Made by a program: the position numbers and the translations under genes. DNA of 64,000 nt from a virus: IMG/VR virus record IMGVR_UViG_3300027754_000041, positions 1 through 64,000 of that record. One strand, written 5' to 3'. This document shows, one piece after another, positions 8,281-35,366 of the stretch. Below the pieces are notes generated by a model, which searched no databases, was not told where the DNA came from, and saw nothing but the letters and a program-made list of their open reading frames with translations. Every line of letters begins with the position of its first letter. Position 1 is the first letter of the stretch.

Positions 8281-8883
8281 ATGCAGAATACTAAATACAA
8301 AATACAGATATCAATATTTGCAGCTTTCCTTGCTATGGCAAGTGGAGCTCAAGCAATGATGTCTGAATCCATCCAGGAGCCTCCTAGTACAAGCACTGCA
8401 ATAGTGCTTACTAGTAACATCTTAGATGAATCTCTAGTGATAGAGAAACAAACTGAACCTATCCAATTTAGACACGGTGACGTGTCATGGCTACCCGAAC
8501 TTGCCTCGCAAGCAGGATGGCCTAAAAACACTTGGAAACGCTTAGGACAGATTATCTTACGAGAATCAGGCGGTTGTCCAAACCGCATTGGTAGTTCTAT
8601 CGTAGATGAGAACTGCAATATCACTGGATACACTAGAGCAACTAATAGGTCAGATTCTGGCTTACTCCAAATCAATGGAGTTAACTGGGATCCTAAACGA
8701 TCTGGTACACAACTTCTTTGTGCAGAATACAAAATCTGTACACAAGAACAGTTACTAGACGCTTTAACCAACCTTAAAGCTGGATACATCTTGTACCAGC
8801 GTGCTGGTTGGGGACCTTGGGATCCTTGCCAATGGGGACCAGCATTTGCTTCCCGATGCGTAAAATCTGCATCAATGCCTTAA
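8281..8883 (+). CDS. Secreted lysozyme/transglycosylase-like protein
   Basis: ATG 8281 gives a typical signal peptide (Lys-rich start, hydrophobic 10-21, 'SGAQA' cleavage site near 25), and a GGAG lies upstream. The earlier ATG at 8230 would bury it. The C-terminal half is a goose-type/SLT lysozyme-like fold: Glu95 in 'ILRESGG' is the likely catalytic acid and 'DSGLLQING' is the family's second block. Cys pairs fit an exported enzyme. It would cleave peptidoglycan glycan strands. Placed outside the late region, it may loosen the wall early or aid exit. A promoter, a folded leader and a terminator make it a single-gene unit. Confidence 0.8.
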   Translation: MQNTKYKIQISIFAAFLAMASGAQAMMSESIQEPPSTSTAIVLTSNILDESLVIEKQTEPIQFRHGDVSWLPELASQAGWPKNTWKRLGQIILRESGGCPNRIGSSIVDENCNITGYTRATNRSDSGLLQINGVNWDPKRSGTQLLCAEYKICTQEQLLDALTNLKAGYILYQRAGWGPWDPCQWGPAFASRCVKSASMP

Positions 8884-8917
8884 TATTTAATTCAAAGGCA
8901 TAGATCTATAGGAATAA

Positions 8918-8940
8918 GGGGGGCCGCAAGGCCCCCTTTA
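8918..8940 (+). terminator. Intrinsic terminator
   Basis: GGGGGCC / GGCCCCC stem with GCAA tetraloop (8926-8929), followed by TTT. It ends the lysozyme message. Confidence 0.75.
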
Positions 8941-9006
8941 TATTTAACCCAAAAAATGTTTTTTTTATACTAAATCAAAATAAAAACAACACCCTACGAA
9001 AGGTAC

Positions 9007-11640
9007 ATGAACATGCCCTCTTATCAACCAGCCGTTCGTTTGCAATCCATGCACAACGGACCATTACGCAGTATTAATGATTATCAATTCGGTTTCTATG
9101 ATGTAGGCTTTAGCCGTAGAGCATTGCGATATCTATCCGAAGTTGAAAATGTAGAAAATCCAATATTCAGAATGGCTACACTGCCTATTCCTTCCAATAA
9201 AATTGAAGCTAAAATTGCAGAAGCATACATACGGAATCCTAAAATCTGCTATTCAGTAGTAGATAAGAATAAGATCGTTCTCGTTTCCATTAAAGGAAGC
9301 GATGGATGGCTTGATGTATATACTAAAATGGGTTTTGAAGTCCGTAGTGGCGACAAAACCGCTAAAAGACTTAAGACTTTTCACCGCGCCGCATTGCTAA
9401 ATGCTCACTTTGAAAAAGATGAACTTGGAGTTATGGTCGTCGACTCAGACGCCTACTCCTCATGGTCATATGACGATCCATCAGTTTCTGAATGGATTAA
9501 ATCAGAATACCCGAATATAGATACAGATGACCCTAAAGTTATCGACCGCCTTCTCGATGGCGGTTTTGTTATTTCACGTCGTATTATTGAACGTGCTACA
9601 CAAAATCTTCCAGTATATGAACCACACAAAACTCTTGACACTAAAGAATATTATTATGATTGGCGTGTACGAAAGAATTTCGTTAACGACATGATGGAAT
9701 GCTCTGTATTCAATGCCCGCATAGTATGCAGCCTTGGCTTCATTAAGGGCAATGCTATTGTTTCTGACAATATGCCCGAAGGTATTGATATCATTACATC
9801 TAAAGCTAATATCAAGTCTGAAATCATATATCACAACGGTTTTGACTTCTTGGCAGAACCTGTTGGATCGTATGAATCAGTACTTACCGACACTCAAACT
9901 GTAATTAATCTTCCCAAACTGTTTCCTATCGCCGATATGGAATACTGGCTTGACGAAGAGTATAAGAAGATCTTTGATCTTGCTATCACAGATAGGTTAC
10001 TAACTAACTGGCGTGCAGTTTACAAACGCCAATTCCGCAAGATTCACGAAGCGGAAGACGAAGAAGCATATGCCCGCATGAACTATGTGGGCTACCGTTG
10101 GCGTAAGCTCGGTATGAAGATAACTGATTCTCCATGGTTGTTTGAAACCTTGGCTATCAGTCATGCTCGACCATTCGCTGATTCATCTAAACCAAGAATA
10201 CCAATCCCTTGCACAGTAAGCGAGCAGGTTATTCCTGAATCATTAGCCCAAATGGCTGGCCATGATATCGAAGTTGAACAAGGCAAGATACGACGTATCG
10301 ACTCACTCGGTATACATGTCGTTAGTGACCTTGACTGGCTCGAGATGTACGAGAGCCATGGCGGTCACGACGAGGATGATTACTTCAAGCTATTCTATCG
10401 CACCATGCGTGGTGGCGAATATGATGGCAAACGAGTAGTTATAATTTGCCGTTCTCCTAATGATCACGGTGAGTACTCCATCTTCGAACACACCGAAGGT
10501 GACTGGTATCCTATATGGAAGGATTCTTCTGGAACTTCTTTTGAATTTCCTGAAGTTAACGGACGCGACTGGCCTAAGCGTCTAAGTAAAGCCATCCATG
10601 ATGGCGATATAACTTACTCTGGTCTTCCTTCTAAACTACTTAATAAACCAAAAAGAGAACCTAAACCATATTCCGCTGATGATGTCATCCAAGACATGCA
10701 TATTTCCATGGCTGGTGGACAAATTGGCGGATATGTTAACGCATGTATGATGCACTCATCAGTTATACATCGTCATCGCCCCAATCAGCTATGTACCCTA
10801 GAAACAGCTCTAGACAAATGCATTAACCCTGATTCTATTGAAGATGTTATTGCAATTGATCAAGAAGCTAACAATATCATGCGCCAAATCTTAGATAGCA
10901 AAACTCCTATTGATAGATTTGTTTGGGAAACTCGTGGTTCTGCACGCTTATTGGAAGTTGATGATGAACTCATTTTAGACGACAATGGCAAACTAAGCAT
11001 TATGTCTAAACTTTGCTATGATAAGTTTAATGAACATTGTCAACGCATTAAGCAGTGGTCGCAGGAAAATGCTAGACCACAAAATCCTCAACTACCACAA
11101 TTGGGTAACAGTCAAATGCAAATGTATTATCACGCTTTACCTATTGTCAATCAATTCCGTTCAGGAATTTGGTCAATCAACTCATCTGAAAGCACAGCTG
11201 AAAATGGTTCTATTGTTCGTAATTCATGGGAATATCTTTACTCTAAACAAGTAGATATTATCAATTCTCTTACAGTAGAATCTGATCGCCATGACTTCGT
11301 TCTTGCCCTTTATTCTGTATGTCTTAACGTACCGACTAAAGCTGGCAAGATTACAGATCATTACATGATGAATAGATTTGTATACCCTCACCTTGAAGCA
11401 GCTTTACAGTATTATGGAATTGGCAATGTTGTCAATTTCTTTATGCAACCAGACGGTGAAGTGCAAATTCTAGAAACTCGTGTTACTGAATGGAAATTTA
11501 CTGACCCAGATAACAATATCCACATCTTTACAGATCCAATTGAGTTTCAACAAGCACAATCGGTTTACTCTGAAATAGATTTCTCAATCAATTCCAGTGC
11601 TTTACCATCACAGGAATCTCGTACTACATCAAAATATTAA
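9007..11640 (+). CDS. Large unknown protein, 877 aa (possible divergent RNA polymerase)
   Basis: Starts after GAAAGG. No close family recognised. A weak clue is residues about 455-465, 'GGHDEDDYFKL', which resembles the metal-binding 'GGDLDGDxY' of two-barrel RNA polymerases (QDE-1, YonO). Nearby 'GFIKGNAIVS' and 'ICRSPNDHGEYS' recall other blocks of those enzymes, but the order differs from the known proteins and the third Asp is not clear. Its size, soluble character and place before a helicase fit a nucleic-acid enzyme. Treat the function as unknown. Confidence 0.75.
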   Translation: MNMPSYQPAVRLQSMHNGPLRSINDYQFGFYDVGFSRRALRYLSEVENVENPIFRMATLPIPSNKIEAKIAEAYIRNPKICYSVVDKNKIVLVSIKGSDGWLDVYTKMGFEVRSGDKTAKRLKTFHRAALLNAHFEKDELGVMVVDSDAYSSWSYDDPSVSEWIKSEYPNIDTDDPKVIDRLLDGGFVISRRIIERATQNLPVYEPHKTLDTKEYYYDWRVRKNFVNDMMECSVFNARIVCSLGFIKGNAIVSDNMPEGIDIITSKANIKSEIIYHNGFDFLAEPVGSYESVLTDTQTVINLPKLFPIADMEYWLDEEYKKIFDLAITDRLLTNWRAVYKRQFRKIHEAEDEEAYARMNYVGYRWRKLGMKITDSPWLFETLAISHARPFADSSKPRIPIPCTVSEQVIPESLAQMAGHDIEVEQGKIRRIDSLGIHVVSDLDWLEMYESHGGHDEDDYFKLFYRTMRGGEYDGKRVVIICRSPNDHGEYSIFEHTEGDWYPIWKDSSGTSFEFPEVNGRDWPKRLSKAIHDGDITYSGLPSKLLNKPKREPKPYSADDVIQDMHISMAGGQIGGYVNACMMHSSVIHRHRPNQLCTLETALDKCINPDSIEDVIAIDQEANNIMRQILDSKTPIDRFVWETRGSARLLEVDDELILDDNGKLSIMSKLCYDKFNEHCQRIKQWSQENARPQNPQLPQLGNSQMQMYYHALPIVNQFRSGIWSINSSESTAENGSIVRNSWEYLYSKQVDIINSLTVESDRHDFVLALYSVCLNVPTKAGKITDHYMMNRFVYPHLEAALQYYGIGNVVNFFMQPDGEVQILETRVTEWKFTDPDNNIHIFTDPIEFQQAQSVYSEIDFSINSSALPSQESRTTSKY

Positions 11641-11649
11641 GGATACAAC

Positions 11650-11883
11650 ATGAAAATATCATCTAAGCTTGGCAAGTACACAGGTAAATTCTGTGGTTTT
11701 ATGAAACAAAAAGAAACACGCGCAGCGTGGTTGACCGCAGAATGGGCCGTAAGTACTGTAGCATTTGCTACAACAGCTTATGCATTGCTTTTAATTGGTT
11801 CACCATTATTAGCATTGCTTTTTGCAGCCATTTACACTTACGGCAGTTACGCATTGTTTTCAATAATGCTACCTAATTCATAA
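11650..11883 (+). CDS. Small membrane protein, 77 aa
   Basis: Two hydrophobic helices (about 31-50 and 52-74) after a basic N terminus. Starts ten bases after the 877-aa gene. Function unknown. Confidence 0.6.
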   Translation: MKISSKLGKYTGKFCGFMKQKETRAAWLTAEWAVSTVAFATTAYALLLIGSPLLALLFAAIYTYGSYALFSIMLPNS

Positions 11884-19186: not shown

Positions 19187-19577
19187 GCTACAACTTCAAG
19201 TTGGAAAGCTGATAGATAAGTTTTTGCCAAACTATTATAAGTCAGTAGATGTTGATGAAGGTTGGTATCAGATAGTTGTTGATTGCGACAATTTATTAAC
19301 TAAGATTGATCCTGATTATAAAATCGCGCAAATCAAACAAAAGTTTGGTGAACTACGTTATTACTTTCAACCATCAGATACTAACAATGGTGAACTATAT
19401 GTAAAAATGAATGCAGTTGTTTTGGCATACGAAAAAATTGCTTCAATTACTTGTGAAGCTACTGGTAATCCTGGTGTATTGATGAAATCTACAGGTGGAT
19501 GGTTTAAAACCCTTGACCCAGAATATGCTAAGTCAACGTTATTCTTTAAAAACTTTACTGTAGTTGAAAAGAATTAA
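19179..19577 (+). CDS. Hypothetical protein, 132 aa
   Basis: ATG 19179 overlaps the previous gene and follows GAAGGAG. Soluble, with a block 'IKQKFGELRYYFQP'. Not recognised. Ends at tRNA position -1. Confidence 0.6.
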   Translation: MNELQLQVGKLIDKFLPNYYKSVDVDEGWYQIVVDCDNLLTKIDPDYKIAQIKQKFGELRYYFQPSDTNNGELYVKMNAVVLAYEKIASITCEATGNPGVLMKSTGGWFKTLDPEYAKSTLFFKNFTVVEKN

Positions 19578-21366: not shown

Positions 21367-21699
21367 ATGCTTATTAGCAGACAACCTTGGATGAACCAGT
21401 CTTCATGTCGTAACGAAAATTTAGAGATATTTTTTCCTAATAGATACACTGAAAATAATGTAGCTAAACCTTTTTCAGTGTGTAAAAATTGTCCTGTAAA
21501 AGTTCAATGTCTTCAATATTCTTATGCTACTGATTCCATAGGCATATGGGGTGGCACCACCGAATATCAACGTAATGTAATTCTTGTAAATTATTTTAAG
21601 AAAAAACCCAAAAAACTTACCTTGTCTGATGCTAGACAGATTATAGATAATGACTATTATTCTGTTTCTATTAATTCAAAAAGTTTAGATTCATACTAA
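21367..21699 (+). CDS. WhiB-family regulator (second copy)
   Basis: Cys14, Cys39, Cys42 and Cys48 give the same cluster-binding spacing as WhiB-1, with 'GIWGG' at 59-63. The C-terminal tail is longer and less Arg-rich (110 aa in all). Two WhiB paralogues in one phage suggest staged control of transcription. Starts after AAGGA, directly behind tRNA-Ile. Confidence 0.88.
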   Translation: MLISRQPWMNQSSCRNENLEIFFPNRYTENNVAKPFSVCKNCPVKVQCLQYSYATDSIGIWGGTTEYQRNVILVNYFKKKPKKLTLSDARQIIDNDYYSVSINSKSLDSY

Positions 21700-23338: not shown

Positions 23339-23722
23339 ATGAGCTCAGAAGATTATAAAAAGATAGAAAAGATTAATAAATTTAACTTTTCATTTGATAT
23401 GGTTACAAAAAGTAAAGACGACATCCAAAAGCAGCGCGATGCCGTAAAAGAAAGAATAGACAAAATAGTAAATCATTTTACAATAGATGATGTACCTATT
23501 CTCTCTTATATACTTCATGTTACCAGCTCTAGGCCTGAACTAAAAAAATTATCTAAAGCCTTAGATCGACTTGCTGACTTAGCAGAAGTTAATGCATCTT
23601 TGAATAATAAACTTAAAGTTATTGAAGCAGCCGAATCAGATCCTAATTGGTTTGCTTTAGCTTTTGGCGATTTTGATCAAGAAATAGATAATGATCTAGA
23701 AAAGTTCTTTACTCAAGATTAA
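23339..23722 (+). CDS. Helical protein, 127 aa
   Basis: Good AGGAG site. Predicted all-helical with heptad stretches, ends in an acidic tail. It stands directly before the ubiquitin-like cluster and might belong to it, but no motif shows this. Confidence 0.55.
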   Translation: MSSEDYKKIEKINKFNFSFDMVTKSKDDIQKQRDAVKERIDKIVNHFTIDDVPILSYILHVTSSRPELKKLSKALDRLADLAEVNASLNNKLKVIEAAESDPNWFALAFGDFDQEIDNDLEKFFTQD

Positions 23723-23748: not shown

Positions 23749-25389
23749 ATGGACAAAGTTTCTTACGCATTCGTTAAAGAAAAGGATAACTTGATTTTTA
23801 GATCTAAAGTTAATTCTTTTAATCTAGATCATGTTACCGATAAAGATATAGCTTCTTTTTATGCATCGTTTTCTGAATACGCTTATTTCGATACAGGACT
23901 GTTGCCACTTGATGGTACTGGCTTGTTAGGAATTAGGAAAGCTGGAAACCATACTCAGGTTATATATCAATATAAACCTGGTATGTATTATGTTAATTGG
24001 GGTGCTTCAGAGCGGGACCCCCATGCCAAGAAGTATTATCTAGCTCAACCATATCGTATTGTTATTATTGACTTCTTAGATAATAACCTACTAGGCGCTA
24101 GAACATTTTACTCTGTTGAGCCCGCAAATCATGGAGGCATACAGTTATACCATGTTAATCTTCCCAACATAAACTGTAAAGGTTATCGCGGCAATGGTGT
24201 TGGTTGGATATGCTTGTACCATAATGAAGATTGGTCTGCTTTGTCTTTCAACGATAGATTGAACAGGGCTCTTGAGCGTTGTTCGGGCGTTGAAGTTTAC
24301 AATGATGCCAACATGAGCGAAACCGATGGTCCAAGATTCTATGCTGAAAATGAAATGCCTGGATACACTTCTGTCCCTGAGCGATGGGAAAGAAAATCTG
24401 AATCAGAAGGCTATGAATGGACATTAGATGCCTCTGAATGGTTACCTATTTTAATCAAAGATAAAGATAATCAAGAAAAACATTATAACGATGGTTCCCC
24501 TCTTACTCTCGTCGATGCAATCACTGGTAATTACAGTGCATATTATGGTGACACATTTTTGCCAAAACCAATCAATGCTATAACCCGTCCCGATTTAAGT
24601 TTAGAGACCAGCCAGATTACAAATTGGTTTGTAAAATCTTACAACTCTTCTCTAACTACATTCTCTGGCATAGACCCATATTCTTCAAGCGCTGCGTATA
24701 AAGAAACTATTTCCATCACACCTGTCAATCCTCCTTCGTTATTTGACGAAGATGAAGACAATGAAGACGAAGAATCAGAAGAACAAGATAATGATATCTT
24801 TTGCCCAATGAGCGAAACTTGGATAAACTCTAGTGATTGTGGCCCACATATTGAACTTATTGTTCAAGAAAACGGAAACGAAACTAATGTTTGCATGAAC
24901 TGTGTTAATAATCATGGCATGGATTATGTTTATGTTAAAAATGCAATGAAGTTTTATGATTCAGATAGTAAAGATCTTGTTTATGATACGCTTTTAAATG
25001 AATATTATTTAATATCAGCAATTAAAAATCCTTGGGCAGTATGCACAAACTGTGAGTCTGTACATATAAGCATAGACAAAGATAAATTAGTAGTCAATGT
25101 TTGGGATAAAATTGGTGGAATTGATTTAGACGATTCTCAACCAAATCAAGTTTGCGAAAATTGTTACCCTAAATATACTTCAGATATTTCTGGTATAGGA
25201 AACGAAACCCATCTCGATTGCTGTGATCAGTGCTCTTGCTTTATGCCTTCTCAAGATTCTATATTTTGTGTAGATACAATTATTTCGGGATTTCAGGGAG
25301 TTCATTCCCAAAAGACCTGTACAACTTGTTCACATGTTATTTATAATCAAGCTGAAGTAAAGCCGTCTGATGACGAAGAACCATTCTAA
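23749..25389 (+). CDS. E2-like conjugating protein with C-terminal zinc-knuckle domain
   Basis: Residues 75-200 follow the UBC/E2 plan: strands 'YRIVIIDFLDNNLLGARTFY', then 'LPN' at 138-140 and 'GWICLYHNEDW' with Cys155 where the catalytic Cys of E2 enzymes lies. An acidic linker (332-350) leads to a Cys-rich region (352-530) with many CxxC pairs, possibly RING- or ribbon-like. The tail 'DDEEPF' looks like an SSB tip. It heads a run with JAB, E1 and Ubl genes. In the PRTRC plasmid system the B protein has an E2-like fold and stands before the JAB and ThiF genes. E2 activity is inference. Confidence 0.7.
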   Translation: MDKVSYAFVKEKDNLIFRSKVNSFNLDHVTDKDIASFYASFSEYAYFDTGLLPLDGTGLLGIRKAGNHTQVIYQYKPGMYYVNWGASERDPHAKKYYLAQPYRIVIIDFLDNNLLGARTFYSVEPANHGGIQLYHVNLPNINCKGYRGNGVGWICLYHNEDWSALSFNDRLNRALERCSGVEVYNDANMSETDGPRFYAENEMPGYTSVPERWERKSESEGYEWTLDASEWLPILIKDKDNQEKHYNDGSPLTLVDAITGNYSAYYGDTFLPKPINAITRPDLSLETSQITNWFVKSYNSSLTTFSGIDPYSSSAAYKETISITPVNPPSLFDEDEDNEDEESEEQDNDIFCPMSETWINSSDCGPHIELIVQENGNETNVCMNCVNNHGMDYVYVKNAMKFYDSDSKDLVYDTLLNEYYLISAIKNPWAVCTNCESVHISIDKDKLVVNVWDKIGGIDLDDSQPNQVCENCYPKYTSDISGIGNETHLDCCDQCSCFMPSQDSIFCVDTIISGFQGVHSQKTCTTCSHVIYNQAEVKPSDDEEPF

Positions 25390-25429
25390 CTAAAAATAAC
25401 GATCAATAAATTCCCATTAAGGAGATTAT

Positions 25430-27148
25430 ATGTCTGACAAAAAAGAAATATCACTTGAAGATCTACAATATTTTTGGATGCCTTCAGGAGTCCCATGCTT
25501 TATCGCTGACAATGACAATATATGCGATATAGTTGAAAACATGGGTTTTAATATTTATTATTTACTTTCTAATAAAAAAATTATTAAAGCACCAGTTGTC
25601 ACTACGCCAAAAAATACTACTGTAGTTTCTGGCACAGCATACAACTCCTACACGTTAGGTGCTCCAACTGCACCCCCACAGCCAACAGTAACATACGAAT
25701 CTTGTTTATTTAAGGTTGTAAACAATTTTGTTGGAAGAGTAGTTGAAGCTTCAACCGATGAACTTCCCGATACTTTCCTTTCTCTTGAGGAAGCATGTGA
25801 ATATACAATGCCACCTATACCTCATGTATTGGTAGAGAAAATGGATCAATTCTTTAGACTTGTCCATTCTCAGCACGGCACTGAATCAATAGTTCTTCTT
25901 ACTTTTGATATGAATAAAACTGGTTCTGATGGTTGGGGCATTCTAGTTCCTGAACAAACAAATACTTCCGTTCATTGCAAGTATGATGCTGACAGCATTG
26001 CTGAGATTAAACCAGAACATGTTATGATAGTTGGTTCTGTTCATTCACATCCAGAAATGTCTGCTTATGCATCTGGCACTGATCATGAAGATCAATCAGA
26101 TTTTGACGGCTTGCACATAACTTATGGTTGGCAGAAAACTATGAATCATGGAGCCACCCAATATCATATGGAACTTCAGATGTCAGGTACAGCTTATTCT
26201 CTCAAAGTTCAGGATGTTTTTGAGGAGTACATTGTAGAAAAAATACCTGATCCCGAAGTTGTAGAATGGTCCGGTAAAGTAAAAAAAGCGCTCCCCCCTT
26301 TAGCGGGGGGTACAACACCGCTGGCTTCGGCGCAGGCCCAATATCAACAACAGACAAAAACAATTTACTCAGCAACTGGGACAACTCATACAACGGCTGG
26401 GGTGGCTACAACTAAATCTTATTCTAATAGAAATAAATCTTGGGCTGATATGATCAATACATTAGAAGTTAATTCTATTGTAATAGGTGAAGTAGAAGCA
26501 AGAAACAGTAATTTTTCTGTTTGTCCAAGTTGCGATTTTGATTTAGATATGCCAGATTACACTTCTGGCTCATGTGGTGTTTGTGATATTCCAATTGTTT
26601 TGGAATCTGATGGCATACATGACATATCTTCAAAGTTCGAAAAATATTGTCAAGTTAGAAAAATTAATAAAAATTCTCTTATTGTTTATTTGTTTGGGTC
26701 AAATGATAAAGCTGAACAGTACTTAATGAAGATGAATTTTTCTGATGACGTCTTTCCTCATGCTACAGCTACAGATTATGCTTACGAAAAAGATTCAGAT
26801 TATGTTCATTTAGCTTCTGATCTATATGATGATGATGGCACTCGCACAATATGCTGCAACATACCAATGGAGGACTATTTGAGTGCTTGCTTTTGCCAAC
26901 CATCTGTGTTGCTAGAAGATTTAGTACTTTTTGAAAAATACACTGAGCATGTAGATTTGTATGCGCCAAACACTGTTTGCGGTGAATGTGTTCATTACCA
27001 TACATCATTGTGCCCAGACTATAGAAATCTTTTAATTGATTTTACTAAAAGCAATTTATTAGATTTATTTGAAGTTTCAAATTCTATTTCTCCATGTCCA
27101 AGTTACGAAAGTCTTTATATTACACTTGAAGCAGAATCAGAAAGATAA
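25430..27148 (+). CDS. JAB/JAMM metallo-isopeptidase
   Basis: Glu152, then His205-Ser-His207-Pro, seven residues, Ser215 and Asp218 reproduce the JAMM zinc motif (E, HxH-x7-S-x2-D) exactly. JAMM enzymes cut isopeptide or peptide bonds after ubiquitin-like proteins. About 125 residues precede the domain. Behind it are a Pro/Thr linker and a second half with two CxxC knuckles ('CPSC', 'CGVC') and further Cys near the end. Like PRTRC protein A it sits next to an E1/ThiF gene. It probably trims the Ubl or removes it from targets. The stretch at 26287-26340 is unusually GC-rich. Confidence 0.85.
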   Translation: MSDKKEISLEDLQYFWMPSGVPCFIADNDNICDIVENMGFNIYYLLSNKKIIKAPVVTTPKNTTVVSGTAYNSYTLGAPTAPPQPTVTYESCLFKVVNNFVGRVVEASTDELPDTFLSLEEACEYTMPPIPHVLVEKMDQFFRLVHSQHGTESIVLLTFDMNKTGSDGWGILVPEQTNTSVHCKYDADSIAEIKPEHVMIVGSVHSHPEMSAYASGTDHEDQSDFDGLHITYGWQKTMNHGATQYHMELQMSGTAYSLKVQDVFEEYIVEKIPDPEVVEWSGKVKKALPPLAGGTTPLASAQAQYQQQTKTIYSATGTTHTTAGVATTKSYSNRNKSWADMINTLEVNSIVIGEVEARNSNFSVCPSCDFDLDMPDYTSGSCGVCDIPIVLESDGIHDISSKFEKYCQVRKINKNSLIVYLFGSNDKAEQYLMKMNFSDDVFPHATATDYAYEKDSDYVHLASDLYDDDGTRTICCNIPMEDYLSACFCQPSVLLEDLVLFEKYTEHVDLYAPNTVCGECVHYHTSLCPDYRNLLIDFTKSNLLDLFEVSNSISPCPSYESLYITLEAESER

Positions 27149-27154
27149 AATATT

Positions 27155-27907
27155 ATGACAACTAAAAGATTTATAGTTATTGGTGCTGGCGGTATAGGTA
27201 CTTGGCTTACCGCTGGATTAGTTAGACTCTTGGAATGGAAATTTCCTGGATCCGCTCTTATTATTGTAGATGGAGATAATTATGAACAGAAGAATAAAGA
27301 ACGTCAAGAATTTACTAAAATTGGCAACAAAGCAGTCGTTAAAGCGCACGAACTCACACCGCAGTTCCCAAATACTACCATCATTCCGATTCCTAAATGG
27401 GTTGTATCCGAAGACTTTGGTGGAGTCACCACTGAAGAAGACGCTCCGAAAATTAAAGCTTCAGATCTTATTAATGAAGGAGATATTGTTTTTGCGGTTG
27501 TCGATAATTTTGCAGCTCGTAAAATAATATTTGATTCGGCTTCTCGGTTAAACAACGTAGATGTTTTTACTGGCGGAAATGATGATGCATTATTCGGTTC
27601 TGTTTATCACTATCAAAAAAGAGATGGTAAGCAGATAACTGAACATCCAGTTGCATTTCATCCAGAATACGAGAACCCACCAGACAAAAACCCTGGTGAG
27701 CTATCTTGTCAACAGCGTTCGGAGATAGAAGGTGGCACTCAATTACTTGCCACTAATATGGCCGTAGCTGCATTAATACTTGGTCGAGTACAGAAAACAA
27801 TTGTATTAGATCAAAGTCCTGAAGAAACAGAAATCTATTTTGATTTAGGTCTTGGAAAATCTGAACCATATAATAGATTGTTTACTTCTATTCCAGTAAC
27901 AGTTTAA
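27155..27907 (+). CDS. E1/ThiF-like activating enzyme
   Basis: 'GAGGIG' at 10-15 binds ATP. Asp39/Asp41, Asn47/Arg50 and Lys59 fit the adenylation site and 'FAVVDN' at 113-118 is the conserved crossover. Cys185 in 'GELSCQQR' is the candidate thioester Cys, just before a conserved-looking 'GGTQ...TN'. The 250-aa single-domain length matches PRTRC ThiF proteins. It would adenylate the C-terminal Gly of the Ubl encoded 34 bases later and pass it to an E2. Only six bases separate it from the JAB gene. Confidence 0.88.
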   Translation: MTTKRFIVIGAGGIGTWLTAGLVRLLEWKFPGSALIIVDGDNYEQKNKERQEFTKIGNKAVVKAHELTPQFPNTTIIPIPKWVVSEDFGGVTTEEDAPKIKASDLINEGDIVFAVVDNFAARKIIFDSASRLNNVDVFTGGNDDALFGSVYHYQKRDGKQITEHPVAFHPEYENPPDKNPGELSCQQRSEIEGGTQLLATNMAVAALILGRVQKTIVLDQSPEETEIYFDLGLGKSEPYNRLFTSIPVTV

Positions 27908-27941
27908 CAACAAAAACAACAATAAAATCAAGGAGACAATC

Positions 27942-28193
27942 ATGGAAAATCAATCAACTGGTCCTTCTGCAGCTCGTCCTGCAGGTATGGCTAATCTAAG
28001 ATTCGGTGTTTACAATCAGCCTACAAACGTAGCTGGCAAATCAGTTCAAGAAGCTCGTGAACAGTTTTCGAAAATTTGGGGCATCCCAACTGATTCCGTT
28101 GCATATAAGGGCAAGGATAAGCTCGATGAGAATTATGTTATCCAACCAGGTGACAACGTAGAGTTCCACCGTCGTGCTGGAGAAAAGGGCTGA
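27942..28193 (+). CDS. Ubiquitin-like protein ending in Gly
   Basis: An 83-aa protein with strong AAGGAGA site. After a loose N-terminal tail (1-17) come a beta strand, a helix ('SVQEAREQFSKIWGI'), further strands and the end 'FHRRAGEKG'. That is the order of a beta-grasp Ubl. The terminal Gly is exposed for E1 activation without processing. The ending resembles PRTRC protein C as I remember it. It closes the E2-JAB-E1-Ubl run and is followed by a very strong terminator. Confidence 0.78.
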   Translation: MENQSTGPSAARPAGMANLRFGVYNQPTNVAGKSVQEAREQFSKIWGIPTDSVAYKGKDKLDENYVIQPGDNVEFHRRAGEKG

Positions 28194-28212
28194 TACATTC
28201 AGCTTTAGGTTT

Positions 28213-28257
28213 GTGGGAAGATATTCTAATCCGCTGAATATCTTCCCACATTTTTTT
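28213..28257 (+). terminator. Strong intrinsic terminator after the Ubl gene
   Basis: A perfect 14-bp stem (28213-28226 / 28236-28249) with 9-base loop is followed by A and seven T. It separates the conjugation genes from the AAA ATPase. Confidence 0.92.
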
Positions 28258-28290: not shown

Positions 28291-29895
28291 ATGTTATTTA
28301 ATGAAATAAAATTAGGTTATCCATCTTTGTGGCTTAAAACCACTGAATCAACAAGGGCAATCCAAAGTTTAACTACATATGATTTTAGAACTTTTTTTAC
28401 TATAGATTTTGAATTAGGTTTTTGCCAATATATTCAAGGTGCTTGGAAAACTATTCTAATTGATATTTTAAATCCAGAAACAGAACAAATAGTTCCAACA
28501 GCTACTTTTAATTCTGCTGTTGCTATGGATTACTTAATGAAGACAAAATTTGAAAAGCCTATAACCTTCATCTCTAATCTGCTAGGTAAGCCAGACGAAG
28601 CATTAGCTCCTTACATTCCTTTTATTTCTTTTCTAAATTCTAACTATCGTACAAATTTTTGGTTAGATGATGTCTCTGCTTCCAATAATCAAATCCTTTT
28701 TATTTCTTCTATTGACTGTCCAGAAGAATATACTCATATGTTTAAGAACATAGAGTTTTCTTATCCTACCCCTGAAGAACTATCTACTGTTGTTAATCAT
28801 ATAGATACATCTTCTGCTGGAAGGTTTGTCCAACAAGATTCTGTCAAAGAAATTGTTAGAGCTGGTTTAGGATTAACTGAAGATAAATTTGTTGATCTAT
28901 GTCTTCAATCTATTGTTCAAACAAATAAAGTTGATCCAAAATATATCTATGATCAAAAGATGCTTCAGATCAAACAGGCTGGAATATTGGAGATTATTAA
29001 ACCATCTATATCTTTTGCTAACATCGGTGGATTAGATAATATTAAAGATATTATTCAAAGAACCAAAGCATTGTGGTCTAACCGAGAACAAGCTAAGTCT
29101 TATGGTGTTGTTCCGATCAGAAGAGTATTAATGGTTGGCGTTCCAGGCACTGGTAAATCTGCTATCTGCCAAGCTACTGCGCATGAGCTAGGTCTTGATT
29201 TGGCCCGCACTGGTATCAGCCAAGTTATGAATTCTTTTGTCGGTCAATCAGAATCAAACATGAGAGCAGTCTTCAAGCAGATAAAGATGATGACTCCTTT
29301 ATGTGTTTGGATAGACGAGTTTGGCAGAGACCTATCAGGTGGTGCAAGTTCTTCTTCTGTAGATGCTGGCACTACTGACCGTGTTCATGGTGAGTTCTTA
29401 ACTGGATTGCAGGAACTTCCAGAAGATACATTCTTGATGTGTGCTGCTAACCAGATTGAAAACTTAAAACCAGAAATGTTAAGAGCTGATCGCTTTGACA
29501 AAATTGTTTTTGTTGGTCTTCCTTCTTTATCGGAAAGAAAAGATATACTTAAAATCTATCTTAAATCGATCAAGACTGACCATGAATTTGATTATGATAT
29601 TCTTTCTGAAAAGACTGAATTCTTTACTGGAGCCGAGTTATCAGCTTTAATTAAAGAAGTCAAGTTCTTTGTTGTTTCCTCTGAGTTGCGGGCTATCAAT
29701 ACAGCTGATATTATGAAGTATATTCCGTTAACAAAAAATATACTCTGGAATAAAAACAGAGATATGATTAAAGGCATGTACCAATATGCAATGGAACAAT
29801 GGGATTGGGCGTCGACAGAACAGCAAAACGATGCTAAACTGATTCTATCCGGAAGAAAGTCTGATTCTCAATTAGAGTCAGCTTGGAAAATATAG
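28291..29895 (+). CDS. AAA+ ATPase, Ycf46-like
   Basis: The AAA module has Walker A 'GVPGTGKS' (283-290), Walker B 'WIDEF' (340-344), sensor-1 Asn387 and 'LRADRFD' (397-403) with arginine fingers. The N-terminal 230 residues begin like Ycf46 ('YPSLWLKTTES'). Such AAA+ rings thread or remodel proteins and resemble the proteasome ATPase and FtsH modules. Lying right after the Ubl, it is the natural unfoldase of the set, perhaps feeding the Ntn hydrolase at 38.4 kb (inference). No peptidase domain is fused. Confidence 0.88.
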   Translation: MLFNEIKLGYPSLWLKTTESTRAIQSLTTYDFRTFFTIDFELGFCQYIQGAWKTILIDILNPETEQIVPTATFNSAVAMDYLMKTKFEKPITFISNLLGKPDEALAPYIPFISFLNSNYRTNFWLDDVSASNNQILFISSIDCPEEYTHMFKNIEFSYPTPEELSTVVNHIDTSSAGRFVQQDSVKEIVRAGLGLTEDKFVDLCLQSIVQTNKVDPKYIYDQKMLQIKQAGILEIIKPSISFANIGGLDNIKDIIQRTKALWSNREQAKSYGVVPIRRVLMVGVPGTGKSAICQATAHELGLDLARTGISQVMNSFVGQSESNMRAVFKQIKMMTPLCVWIDEFGRDLSGGASSSSVDAGTTDRVHGEFLTGLQELPEDTFLMCAANQIENLKPEMLRADRFDKIVFVGLPSLSERKDILKIYLKSIKTDHEFDYDILSEKTEFFTGAELSALIKEVKFFVVSSELRAINTADIMKYIPLTKNILWNKNRDMIKGMYQYAMEQWDWASTEQQNDAKLILSGRKSDSQLESAWKI

Positions 29896-32699: not shown

Positions 32700-34199
32700 A
32701 TGGTTTCTATGAAAAATTTGATTACAATCGATGCAGATACGACTTCTTTATACTCTGTACAGTTTGAGAAGAACGCGGCATTCCATGATCTTTGTAGGAG
32801 TTTTACTTCTCTTAATCTTGAAGATAAAGAATTAGATATTCATGCATTGTTTGAAATGACTTATATCCATGAATCTGATATTTCTACTGATTCTTTTTAT
32901 TCTCTTAAAAATAAAAGATCTAAAGATACTTATAAAGATTTTGTTTACCCTATGGCAGTAAGATATATTTCTAAGGAAAACACATATGTTATTGAAAGAC
33001 CTCCATTTCAATTTGAGGTCGATTTTCGTTTAGGTACAGCTAGTTCTGGTAGCGCTAAAATGCATCCAGTAACTATGTGGGCACCTTGGACAGTTATGGT
33101 TTTTAATGCTAATAGTTTAGCTTTTGGTGATTTTTCTGGAGTAAAACTATATTTTAATGATGGTCCGATTAATTCTTTGGATGATATTCTTGTACCTTGT
33201 TTTTATCCTAATAGTTATAGTGATGCTAGAATTTGTTTTTCTGGTTCGCTTAATGACTTTAATGATGTTCTAGATATTTCATTATTTGACAATGGAAATA
33301 TTGGTTATATATATAATTATATATTCAACAATTATATGATGGGTGGTTGGAATACTGACCTTGATGCTCAAATGCTATCACTGTTAGATAATGTTAGCAT
33401 TTTAAGCTCAGAAGTAGAAGCCTGCAAAGAATATCCTACAATTAGCTTATTTAGGAATCCTATACAGGATACTAATTTTTATAAATCTATTTTTGCTAAA
33501 TACCCCAGATCTTTTACTGGTAAATATAAAAGATATTTTGAAAATACTTTTTCATTTTCAAGAACTAACCTAAGTAAAGAGAAAATGTTTGCTAGAAACT
33601 TTATAATTTATTCTATGTTTACTTTAGAAAAGAAACTTTCTTTAATCTCTGAAATGAAAAAAATAAGAGAGCTATATATACTTAAAGGATCTTCTCACGT
33701 ACATCTACCTCAAAAAAGTATTAATACTATTATTAATTCTTTTTCTGAAGAATCAAAATCTAAGTCAACTTCTAATTTTTCTATCAAATCACTTTATAGA
33801 AATAAAGATATAAATTTTGATTATAAATATAAATCTTCTAAATTTCATATTTACATAACAAATTTGTCTCCTGGATTTATTTCATCATACTCTCGACATC
33901 ATGTTTTAGATCAAATAATTTCTTTAGAAAATTTTCAAAAGATAAATAAAATTATTTTGGACAACATAAATAGTCAAGATTCTCAAATAGCTTTTATCTA
34001 TAATTTTAAAGATCATACTTTTGATGTTATTGTAAATTATAATGCAAAAAGTTTTATAACTCCTATTTACGAATCTTTAATAGAAAGATCTTCTGCTGAT
34101 CCAAAAATTGTCACTAGATACTTTAGTCACATTACACAGTATCCTCTTACAACATATTTGCAGGGTATATATAATTTTCAGGAACCCTCTTTAACTTAA
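32700..34199 (+). CDS. E2-like protein (PRTRC-B type), 499 aa
   Basis: Blocks 'IERPPF' (98-103), a strand 'VKLYF', then 'YPN' (169-171) and Cys179 in 'RICFSG' copy the E2 signature in which the catalytic Cys comes eight residues after the Asn of HPN. A helical, Trp-containing segment (203-220) follows, as in PRTRC-B proteins. The C-terminal 280 residues are an extra, Lys- and Ser-rich domain. Paralogue of the 385-aa protein downstream. Confidence 0.6.
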   Translation: MVSMKNLITIDADTTSLYSVQFEKNAAFHDLCRSFTSLNLEDKELDIHALFEMTYIHESDISTDSFYSLKNKRSKDTYKDFVYPMAVRYISKENTYVIERPPFQFEVDFRLGTASSGSAKMHPVTMWAPWTVMVFNANSLAFGDFSGVKLYFNDGPINSLDDILVPCFYPNSYSDARICFSGSLNDFNDVLDISLFDNGNIGYIYNYIFNNYMMGGWNTDLDAQMLSLLDNVSILSSEVEACKEYPTISLFRNPIQDTNFYKSIFAKYPRSFTGKYKRYFENTFSFSRTNLSKEKMFARNFIIYSMFTLEKKLSLISEMKKIRELYILKGSSHVHLPQKSINTIINSFSEESKSKSTSNFSIKSLYRNKDINFDYKYKSSKFHIYITNLSPGFISSYSRHHVLDQIISLENFQKINKIILDNINSQDSQIAFIYNFKDHTFDVIVNYNAKSFITPIYESLIERSSADPKIVTRYFSHITQYPLTTYLQGIYNFQEPSLT

Positions 34200-34208
34200 G
34201 GAGTAGAA

Positions 34209-35366
34209 ATGGCTCTTATTATACTAGAAGATCCAAGCCCACATTATAATGTTATTTCACATAAATCACCTGAAAATACTGTTGATAGTATGTGCTATGT
34301 TTCTTCCGATGATAGATATCATATGCACACTACAACAATTTCGGAATTAGCTAAGGTTTATACCGATAATTTTTTCTCTGAATTTAATACAGTAAAGACT
34401 AAAAAAATTCATTCCGGATTGCTTCAACCAGGTGTAAAAATGATTGGTGACAATTATTTAATTTTTGAACGTCCTCCAACTTTTAAGAATGTTTTTTATA
34501 TTGGCACAGATAAGGCCAATGTCCCTGACGAGTTTTTGGGTATCGAAGATGCACAGAATGTTTTTCGCATTCCTATACCTTGGCAATTATATTTTGTTAA
34601 ATTTAATAATGAAATGTATACATATGAAGTAAGAATGTATTTCATGAATAACAGCTTAGTTTCTCTTGACCAAGTATTGTCTTTGCCACCACTTCCAAAC
34701 TTTTTTACCAATGCCCTTCTTTGCTCTCCTTCAATGGATAATATGGATGATGTTGATAGATATTCTAAGGATGCATCGGGCGTTATGGCATGCGCTTATG
34801 ACTGGGTTTGGAATTCTGGCACTAATCATGATTTAACCGAATCCTGCTTAAGCGCCTCTAGCCAAATTGAACATTCTTCTGGCCTGTTTAAGAATAGGGA
34901 CAAATCTGAAGTAGATGCAAAATTTATTTCTAAAAATTTTAACTCTTATGCTGCTACAGTTTCTCAGGTTAATTATCTACTTTCTTGCTGGGAAGGATTT
35001 TCCCTTCATGACGTATGCAATATGACTTGGCCAAATATTTCTGGTGATTCTAAAAACTTTAATAGAATTAATCCTGCTGATCATCATAGCTATTATGATT
35101 ACCTTAATGAATATTTAATTGATTATTTAAACATAGAACAAGAAGATGTTGAAGATATTGTTGAGAATGAAGGATATGATTCTAATGATTATTTTATGTG
35201 GCTTACTCATAACAATAAAATAGATTTTTCTTCAATCAATAGATATCCCGAATACTGCTACCCTGAAGTAATGCCTGGTTTAATAGATGGAATATACAGA
35301 GAACTTAAAGCTCCTTTACACAATCTTTTGCGCGATGTTGCTGCTCATCAATCTTTAACACTTTAA
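34209..35366 (+). CDS. E2-like protein (PRTRC-B type), 385 aa
   Basis: Shares with the 499-aa neighbour 'FERPP' (86-90), strand 'YEVRMYFMNNSLVSLDQVL', 'LPN' (162-164) and Cys172 in 'LLCSPS', again eight residues after the Asn. 'YDWVWNSGTNHD' near 197-208 matches the neighbour's 'MMGGWNTD'. Tandem duplication with divergence is clear. Catalytic role is inferred from spacing only. Starts nine bases after the neighbour, with AAGGAG. Confidence 0.6.
   Translation: MALIILEDPSPHYNVISHKSPENTVDSMCYVSSDDRYHMHTTTISELAKVYTDNFFSEFNTVKTKKIHSGLLQPGVKMIGDNYLIFERPPTFKNVFYIGTDKANVPDEFLGIEDAQNVFRIPIPWQLYFVKFNNEMYTYEVRMYFMNNSLVSLDQVLSLPPLPNFFTNALLCSPSMDNMDDVDRYSKDASGVMACAYDWVWNSGTNHDLTESCLSASSQIEHSSGLFKNRDKSEVDAKFISKNFNSYAATVSQVNYLLSCWEGFSLHDVCNMTWPNISGDSKNFNRINPADHHSYYDYLNEYLIDYLNIEQEDVEDIVENEGYDSNDYFMWLTHNNKIDFSSINRYPEYCYPEVMPGLIDGIYRELKAPLHNLLRDVAAHQSLTL

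Follow-up and report, generated by a model that had tools for sequence, protein, structure and literature searches.

A probable ubiquitin-like conjugation and deconjugation system encoded by a lake bacteriophage and related to plasmid PRTRC cassettes

Bacterial ubiquitin-like conjugation has so far been known mainly from plasmid cassettes and from anti-phage defence; in the locus described here, the genes for such machinery belong to a phage itself and form a conserved block. The stretch of DNA analyzed, referred to as the window, comprises bases 1-64000 of the 171,522-bp IMG/VR virus record IMGVR_UViG_3300027754_000041 and belongs to a lake bacteriophage. An initial annotation, made from the letters of the window alone, had claimed four adjacent genes on a phage genome, encoding an E2-like protein, a JAB/JAMM metalloprotease, an E1 and a ubiquitin-like modifier (Ubl). 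All four open reading frames (ORFs) are intact and in this order at 23749-28257, and the phage origin is borne out by the rest of the record, which encodes phage DNA polymerase, primase, DnaB-type helicase, ribonucleotide reductase, head proteins and a tail sheath. As tail sheath, head and phage replication genes occur together, the virus is a contractile-tailed phage, and a WhiB-like gene at 21367-21699 of the window suggests an actinobacterial host. We consider it probable, at roughly three chances in four, that the four genes specify a phage-encoded ubiquitin-like conjugation and deconjugation system. The operon consists of the following features:

23749-25389, + strand: E2A, an E2-like, Prok-E2_D-related protein of 546 aa (alignments and iterated profile)
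25430-27148, + strand: JAB/JAMM metalloprotease of 572 aa (Prok-JAB and PRTRC_A matches, JAMM motif)
27155-27907, + strand: E1, a ThiF-type activating enzyme of 250 aa (ThiF and PRTRC_ThiF matches)
27942-28193, + strand: Ubl, a ubiquitin-like modifier of 83 aa (AlphaFold2 model, beta-grasp)
28212-28257, + strand: intrinsic terminator (perfect stem of 28212-28226 with 28236-28250, 9-nt loop, run of seven T ending at 28257)

The terminator reads TGTGGGAAGATATTC-TAATCCGCT-GAATATCTTCCCACA-TTTTTTT; it had been described with a 14-bp stem, and while the terminator itself is present, its stem measures 15 bp.

E1, JAMM protease and modifier of the phage operon

The E1 protein matches the Pfam family ThiF (3.3e-11) and the NCBIfam model PRTRC_ThiF (1.5e-6; by hhalign 98.5%, E 2.7e-15). 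Its GAGGIG nucleotide motif occupies residues 10-15 (27182-27199), and Cys185 (27707-27709) is the sole cysteine of the window protein. In an alignment of distinct E1 proteins from viruses and plasmids, Cys185 is invariant together with N47, R50, Q51, D39, K59 and D117 (126/126), and this conservation marks the protein as an E1 with adenylation motifs and a catalytic cysteine, as initially annotated. The predicted exact JAMM motif is likewise complete in the JAB protein, with Glu152 (25883) and H205-S-H207-x7-S215-x2-D218 (26042-26083); an N-terminal extension and a C-terminal tail with a CxxC zinc motif accompany it. The protein matches Prok-JAB (7.7e-5) and PRTRC_A (6.5e-5; by hhalign E 4.7e-4), and its full motif is invariant in the alignment of close relatives and kept in 99 of 104 distinct JAB proteins, so that motif and family match together identify a JAMM deconjugase or processing protease. 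Chance can be ruled out, given the ThiF and Prok-JAB matches, the invariant catalytic residues and a gene order kept in all 29 representative relatives.

The Ubl alone has no family-database match. An AlphaFold2 model built from 29 relatives (pLDDT 80) has the secondary-structure order bbabbb, and the best 50 matches listed in a Foldseek comparison with the PDB (probability 1.00, E 2e-4 to 1e-3) comprise ubiquitin, SUMO, NEDD8, the parkin Ubl, FAT10, other Ubls and designed ubiquitin variants. The model and its matches support the claimed beta-grasp fold for this glycine-terminated modifier. Its C-terminal tail, flexible and of low confidence in the model, ends in GEKG (28179-28190), a motif present in the Ubl of every close relative in the alignments and there sometimes followed by two extra residues (SL, NI, SK or LA); a short extension C is seen in relatives as well. 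Across the class, GxKG stands exactly at the Ubl end in 88 proteins and is followed by one to five residues in 20, the rest having longer tails or tandem units; because the count required [GA]xKG, the frequency of the motif is conditioned, its end position is not.

Tandem poly-Ubls whose units end in GTKG have five units in L165, three in Vibrio phage D69, four in plasmid pAD3 and two in plasmid pN497-ZHONG. Such genes were located at 2595-3701 of L165 (five units), 2391-3182 of L265 (three) and 955-1716 of L058 (four), which represent two phages and a Bacillus plasmid. They are a prokaryotic counterpart of polyubiquitin and have the same layout. Poly-Ubls and tail extensions call for a processing protease, and this would be the obvious first task for the JAMM protease; JAB processing was proposed earlier for other Ubl-JAB pairs (Iyer et al., 2006; PMC1779556).

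A beta-grasp protein next to a ThiF-type enzyme might also point to a sulfur-carrier system, in which a ThiS/MoaD-like Ubl would carry a thiocarboxylate for thio-modification of tRNA, a cofactor or a natural product and the E1 would act like ThiF/MoeB; beta-grasp carriers activated by ThiF-type enzymes are indeed the classical sulfur carriers. ThiS and MoaD end in GG, whereas the Ubl tail is GxKG, and family-database scans found no rhodanese domain in the E1. Furthermore, in nearly all loci the E1 is joined by an E2-family protein whose Cys is invariant, and genes for a sulfurtransferase, a cysteine desulfurase or a synthase were not recognized beside the operon. Although sulfur gene clusters do pair JAB with ThiS/MoaD (PMC1779556), we regard a sulfur carrier as very unlikely.

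The E2 family and its link to plasmid cassettes

The N-terminal domain of E2A contains LPN at 138-140 (24160-24168), its Pro-Asn being invariant, and the likewise invariant Cys155 (24211-24213), LPNINCKGYRGNGVGWICLY. The C-terminal part is variable and carries five CxxC motifs, predicted to form zinc ribbons or treble clefs; as it is absent in two relatives (L004 and L024), this tail appears dispensable. E2A alone has no family-database match, including Pfam Prok-E2_D (PF14460). A profile iterated over 21,595 ORFs from the collected loci reaches Prok-E2_D proteins of Bacillota plasmids in the second round (6e-6 and 5e-5) and PRTRC_B of proteobacterial plasmids in the third (7.5e-5 and 1.1e-4), and converges at 1e-21 to 1e-29; the final profile matches neither reversed sequences nor control loci. 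Bridging phage relatives match Prok-E2_D directly (L170 at 1.9e-8, L178 at 3.1e-4), as does, at 1.8e-6, a second gene of the E2 family in the distant relative L219, which lies further downstream in its cluster. Family-wide, the Asn of LPN is conserved to 99% and the Cys is found in 209 of 212 aligned rows. Iterated profiles, bridging relatives, clean controls and the conserved Asn and Cys make the membership of E2A in the Prok-E2_D superfamily well supported at the level of sequence.

The second-round profile also detects two paralogues downstream of the operon:

32700-34199, + strand: second E2-family paralogue, 499 aa (1.8e-5)
34209-35366, + strand: third E2-family paralogue, 385 aa (1.7e-10)

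The former contains YPNSYSDARIC with Cys179 at 33234-33236 and has orthologues in 21/29 loci, the latter LPNFFTNALLC with Cys172 at 34722-34724 and orthologues in 22/29. Judged by these motifs, the window phage carries three E2-family proteins with a candidate Cys. Two neighboring E2-family genes are likewise detected by profile in L008 and L031. The initial annotation had overlooked the two extra E2-family proteins, together with the zinc-motif tails, the Ubl extensions and poly-Ubl precursors, and the cultured carriers of the system.

It had named the PRTRC set of proteobacterial plasmids as the closest match, and this relation is supported by the comparison. In both systems E2 (B), JAB (A) and E1 (ThiF) are contiguous in that order; E1 and JAB are homologous by the hhalign matches given above, E2 is so via intermediates in the iterated profile, and both have a small Ubl ending in GxKG, PRTRC_C having GTKG or GAKG at its end or close to it. 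The two differ in that the Ubl gene follows E1 in the window, whereas the PRTRC Ubl gene precedes E2, and in that the window system has zinc-motif tails on E2 and JAB and two extra E2 paralogues. While E1 and JAB match PRTRC_ThiF and PRTRC_A, they lie far below the cut-offs (27.7 vs 144.75 bits and 22.6 vs 101.8 bits, respectively), and the PRTRC_B and PRTRC_C models gave no match. PRTRC E, F and ParB partners were not recognized beside the operon, the genes further out having been only partly scanned. Because of the scores below cut-off and the lack of recognized E, F and ParB partners, we call the system PRTRC-related rather than PRTRC. It is probably a divergent branch of the PRTRC or type-6d plasmid class of Iyer et al. 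(2006), characterized by Prok-E2_D, PRTRC_A, PRTRC_ThiF and a Ubl ending in GxKG; this class is already known, and the phage variant is new. We found no open-literature paper describing a phage-borne E1-E2-JAB-Ubl pathway, most subscription papers and bioRxiv preprints lying outside the search.

Prok-E2_D/ThiF cassettes of Bacillota plasmids (pN497-ZHONG, pAD3) share E2_D, ThiF and Ubl with the window, and their poly-Ubl repeats end in AGTKG; in the profile search they are intermediate between phage E2 and PRTRC E2. They differ in being plasmid-borne, in having poly-Ubls of two to four units and in their flanking genes. A phage Ubl paired with a JAB protein is also found in tail assembly protein I of lambda/T1 with protein K (PMC1779556), but this pair has neither E1 nor E2 and sits in the tail module.

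Distribution, cultured relatives and possible use

The proposal that the four-gene order could be sought in other phages proved fruitful: in 29/29 representative related loci, E2A, JAB, E1 and Ubl are all present in the same order, preceded by a 127-aa gene. The system is widespread amongst other large phages, a few of them cultured. Scans of IMG/VR yielded 42 loci for window-type E1, 45 for E2, 79 for PRTRC_ThiF and 73 for a broader E1 profile, these sets overlapping. Of the distinct viral E1 loci, 108 had adequate flanks, and in 72 of these all three partners (E2, JAB and Ubl) lie within 7 kb; no JAB was recognized in 20 and no Ubl in 10. The complete loci, plasmids included, show the order E2-JAB-E1-Ubl in 48/86 cases and the PRTRC order Ubl-E2-JAB-E1 in 37/86, with E2, JAB and E1 in that order in 85/86; the more PRTRC-like contigs, which may include plasmids or integrated elements, have the viral status given by the IMG/VR classification. 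Comparisons of unrelated members, made as controls, found nothing. In a FastTree phylogeny of 131 E1 proteins, the window falls into an all-virus clade of 29 (support 100) within an all-virus clade of 52 (support 98), while proteobacterial PRTRC plasmids lie elsewhere, interspersed with viral contigs, and those of Bacillota cluster with Bacillus phage KLEB27-3. Owing to the midpoint root and long branches, we infer no direction of transfer. A scan of bacterial genomes for window-type E1 gave a single match, on a 10-kb contig of a metagenome-assembled genome. This contig (L044, PXAT01000157.1) carries a window-type operon and was binned into an Ectothiorhodospiraceae genome, probably as a wrongly binned phage contig.

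Using an intermediate E1 as query, tblastn retrieved Bacillus phage KLEB27-3, Vibrio phages D69, D148 and D181, Salmonella phage Arash, Acinetobacter phage ME3 and Burkholderia phage BgVeeders33. Profile searches of the regions found E2, JAB, E1 and Ubl in each of the five cultured phages examined (Arash, D69, KLEB27-3, ME3 and BgVeeders33), ME3 being the weakest (E2 0.015, Ubl 5e-4). Their clusters are phage-borne and of the same families as the window operon; they differ from it in the Ubl-first order, in their distant E1 clades and in being annotated as hypothetical, structural, ThiF or PRTRC. In Arash (OQ632216, L266), an unannotated 66-aa Ubl ORF at 107-307, ending in RTGTKG, lies upstream of E2, JAB and E1; GenBank annotates a reading frame overlapping it. 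GenBank labels Arash gp246c (E1) and gp248c (E2) as structural, and the 116 proteins reported by virion mass spectrometry include Gp246, Gp247, Gp248 and Gp249 (PMC10585845); the table numbering may be shifted by one relative to GenBank, with E1, JAB and E2 covered either way. The homologous E1/JAB/E2 set of Arash is therefore expressed as protein, whereas its packaging in the virion is uncertain. As cultured phages carry relatives, the use of a ubiquitin system by bacterial viruses can be tested by mass spectrometry and mutants.

For the course of the reaction, including adenylation, thioester transfer, isopeptide formation and deconjugation as well as targets and use, we infer the following. 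The JAMM protease would trim extended or poly-Ubl precursors, exposing the GxKG carboxyl end, whose glycine the E1 would adenylate with ATP before forming a thioester on Cys185. An E2-family protein would then take over the Ubl on its catalytic Cys (Cys155 in E2A), while the two paralogues at 32700-35366 may act on different targets. The E2 would join the Ubl to target lysines, with no recognizable E3 unless the zinc-motif tail of E2A serves as one, and the same JAMM protease could later remove the Ubl from its targets. More tentatively, and with doubt prevailing, large phages might be a main reservoir of an independently diversified Ubl system, in which several E2s give a choice of targets, poly-Ubls are processed in a eukaryote-like manner, and the enzymes, perhaps along with tagged proteins, are packaged in the virion and act on the host from the start of infection.

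Several observations weigh against a conjugation system. No Ubl conjugate has been observed so far, and the Ubl of the window phage already ends at Gly and needs no trimming. Carry-over into the Arash virion preparation is likely, given that 116 proteins were detected, and the Arash paper itself notes carry-over of proteins abundant during infection (PMC10585845). The phage E2 and Ubl lack a direct match to PRTRC_B and PRTRC_C, the hhalign comparison of E2 with PRTRC_B being not significant, so the E2 is connected through intermediates and the Ubl by its fold and tail; the reference family, too, is structurally unproven, since searches with its PRTRC_B and PRTRC_C profiles returned no solved structure. 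Moreover, of the two folds claimed initially, the beta-grasp was recovered by prediction, but Foldseek found no UBC match in the PDB for a 304-residue model of E2A with a low-confidence active-site loop; in BFVD the model matches only other phage proteins of unassigned function.

The missing UBC match lends some weight to the view that the 546-aa protein and its paralogues are no E2 enzymes at all but Cys-containing scaffolds or substrates, conjugation being E1-only or absent. An hhalign comparison of E2_D with Prok-E2_B, a UBC-type bacterial family, aligns the active-site Cys motif only, and the presence of three paralogues in one genome would also fit. Against this, the E2-like assignment keeps its LPN and Cys155 and its profile link to Prok-E2_D and PRTRC_B; the PN...C motif keeps its Asn and Cys almost without exception throughout the family, Pfam curates the family as Prok-E2_D, and the 6d member was reported to match E2 profiles significantly over a region that includes the Cys (Iyer et al., 2006; PMC1779556). 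The UBC fold of the superfamily thus rests on those profile matches and the Pfam name, and we judge a non-enzymatic role improbable.

As to the use of the pathway, the initial annotation had put forward host takeover, anti-defence or virion labelling as possibilities. We prefer the reading that the phage itself would modify phage or host proteins during infection, rather than defence of the host. Defence against competing phages would have precedents in CBASS Cap2/Cap3, with its E1-like adenylation domain, E2-like domain and JAB-type protease logic, and in Bil and Bub, which likewise are E1-E2/JAB systems of bacterial defence. In PADLOC, E1-E2 models give a weak match to the E1 (2.6e-4) and IetA models one to an AAA ATPase encoded next to the operon (1.3e-27), but these matches cover common adenylation or AAA domains only. 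In CBASS, a bacterial defence, E1 and E2 are fused and modification takes place with the CD-NTase, not a beta-grasp Ubl, whereas the window has separate E1 and E2 genes; the E1 domain is the one part that matches, and it does so weakly, while a CD-NTase or another effector was not recognized. Bil and Bub operons have separate E1, E2, JAB and Ubl; neither was retrieved by any search, the models scanned being those of PADLOC only. A set kept in 29/29 lineage representatives is expected of a core function and not of sporadic cargo, which leaves a phage-borne defence system distinctly unlikely.

Maintenance of plasmid or phage DNA, a putative role of PRTRC, by modification of replication or partition proteins is suggested by several plasmids on which PRTRC cassettes adjoin genes for ParB-like proteins, DnaN or primase. 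The window operon, in contrast, lies on the + strand, surrounded by genes for tRNA, WhiB and hypothetical proteins; most structural and replication genes are on the other strand, and those for replication lie apart from it near 69-105 kb of the record (- strand). No ParB-like gene was recognized beside the operon, and we consider DNA maintenance unlikely. Strand and tRNA/WhiB surroundings would fit an early or regulatory role of the operon better than that of a late structural module.

Neighboring genes and further loci

Two further genes adjoin the operon:

23339-23722, + strand: 127-aa protein, directly upstream of the E2 gene in 29/29 representative loci (30-87% identity), a conserved operon companion
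28291-29895, + strand: AAA+ ATPase of the FtsH/PAN/CDC48-like branch, 534 aa (AAA 2.1e-23)

The AAA ATPase, whose IetA match lies in its AAA domain, lies near the Ubl gene in 27/29 loci of the close clade. We considered it as the core unfoldase of a proteasome-like pathway and rejected this role, because other Ubl loci lack the gene and some phages that have it carry no Ubl genes in the region examined. It is for the same reasons a lineage-specific neighbor rather than a member of the class, and probably not a core component. Relatives of the ATPase occur in Rhodobacter, Rhizobium, Pseudomonas and Mycobacterium phages; the genes downstream showed no BLAST similarity to those of phage RcTiptonus.

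Some observations concern individual contigs. The 267-kb record IMGVR_UViG_3300042868_009074 (G001) carries two diverged operon copies at 19568 and 235147 (E1 76% and E2A 40% identical) and a single DNA polymerase match, and may be either a phage with two operons or an assembly chimera. The DNA polymerase gene is split or has an in-frame stop in G003 (near 8384-11705) and G012 (near 107087-110360), which an intron, an intein, a frameshift or an assembly error could explain. Finally, a tandem run of similar glycine-rich genes, putatively encoding tail fibres or adhesins, occupies 3568-10481 of L258 (G000 record).

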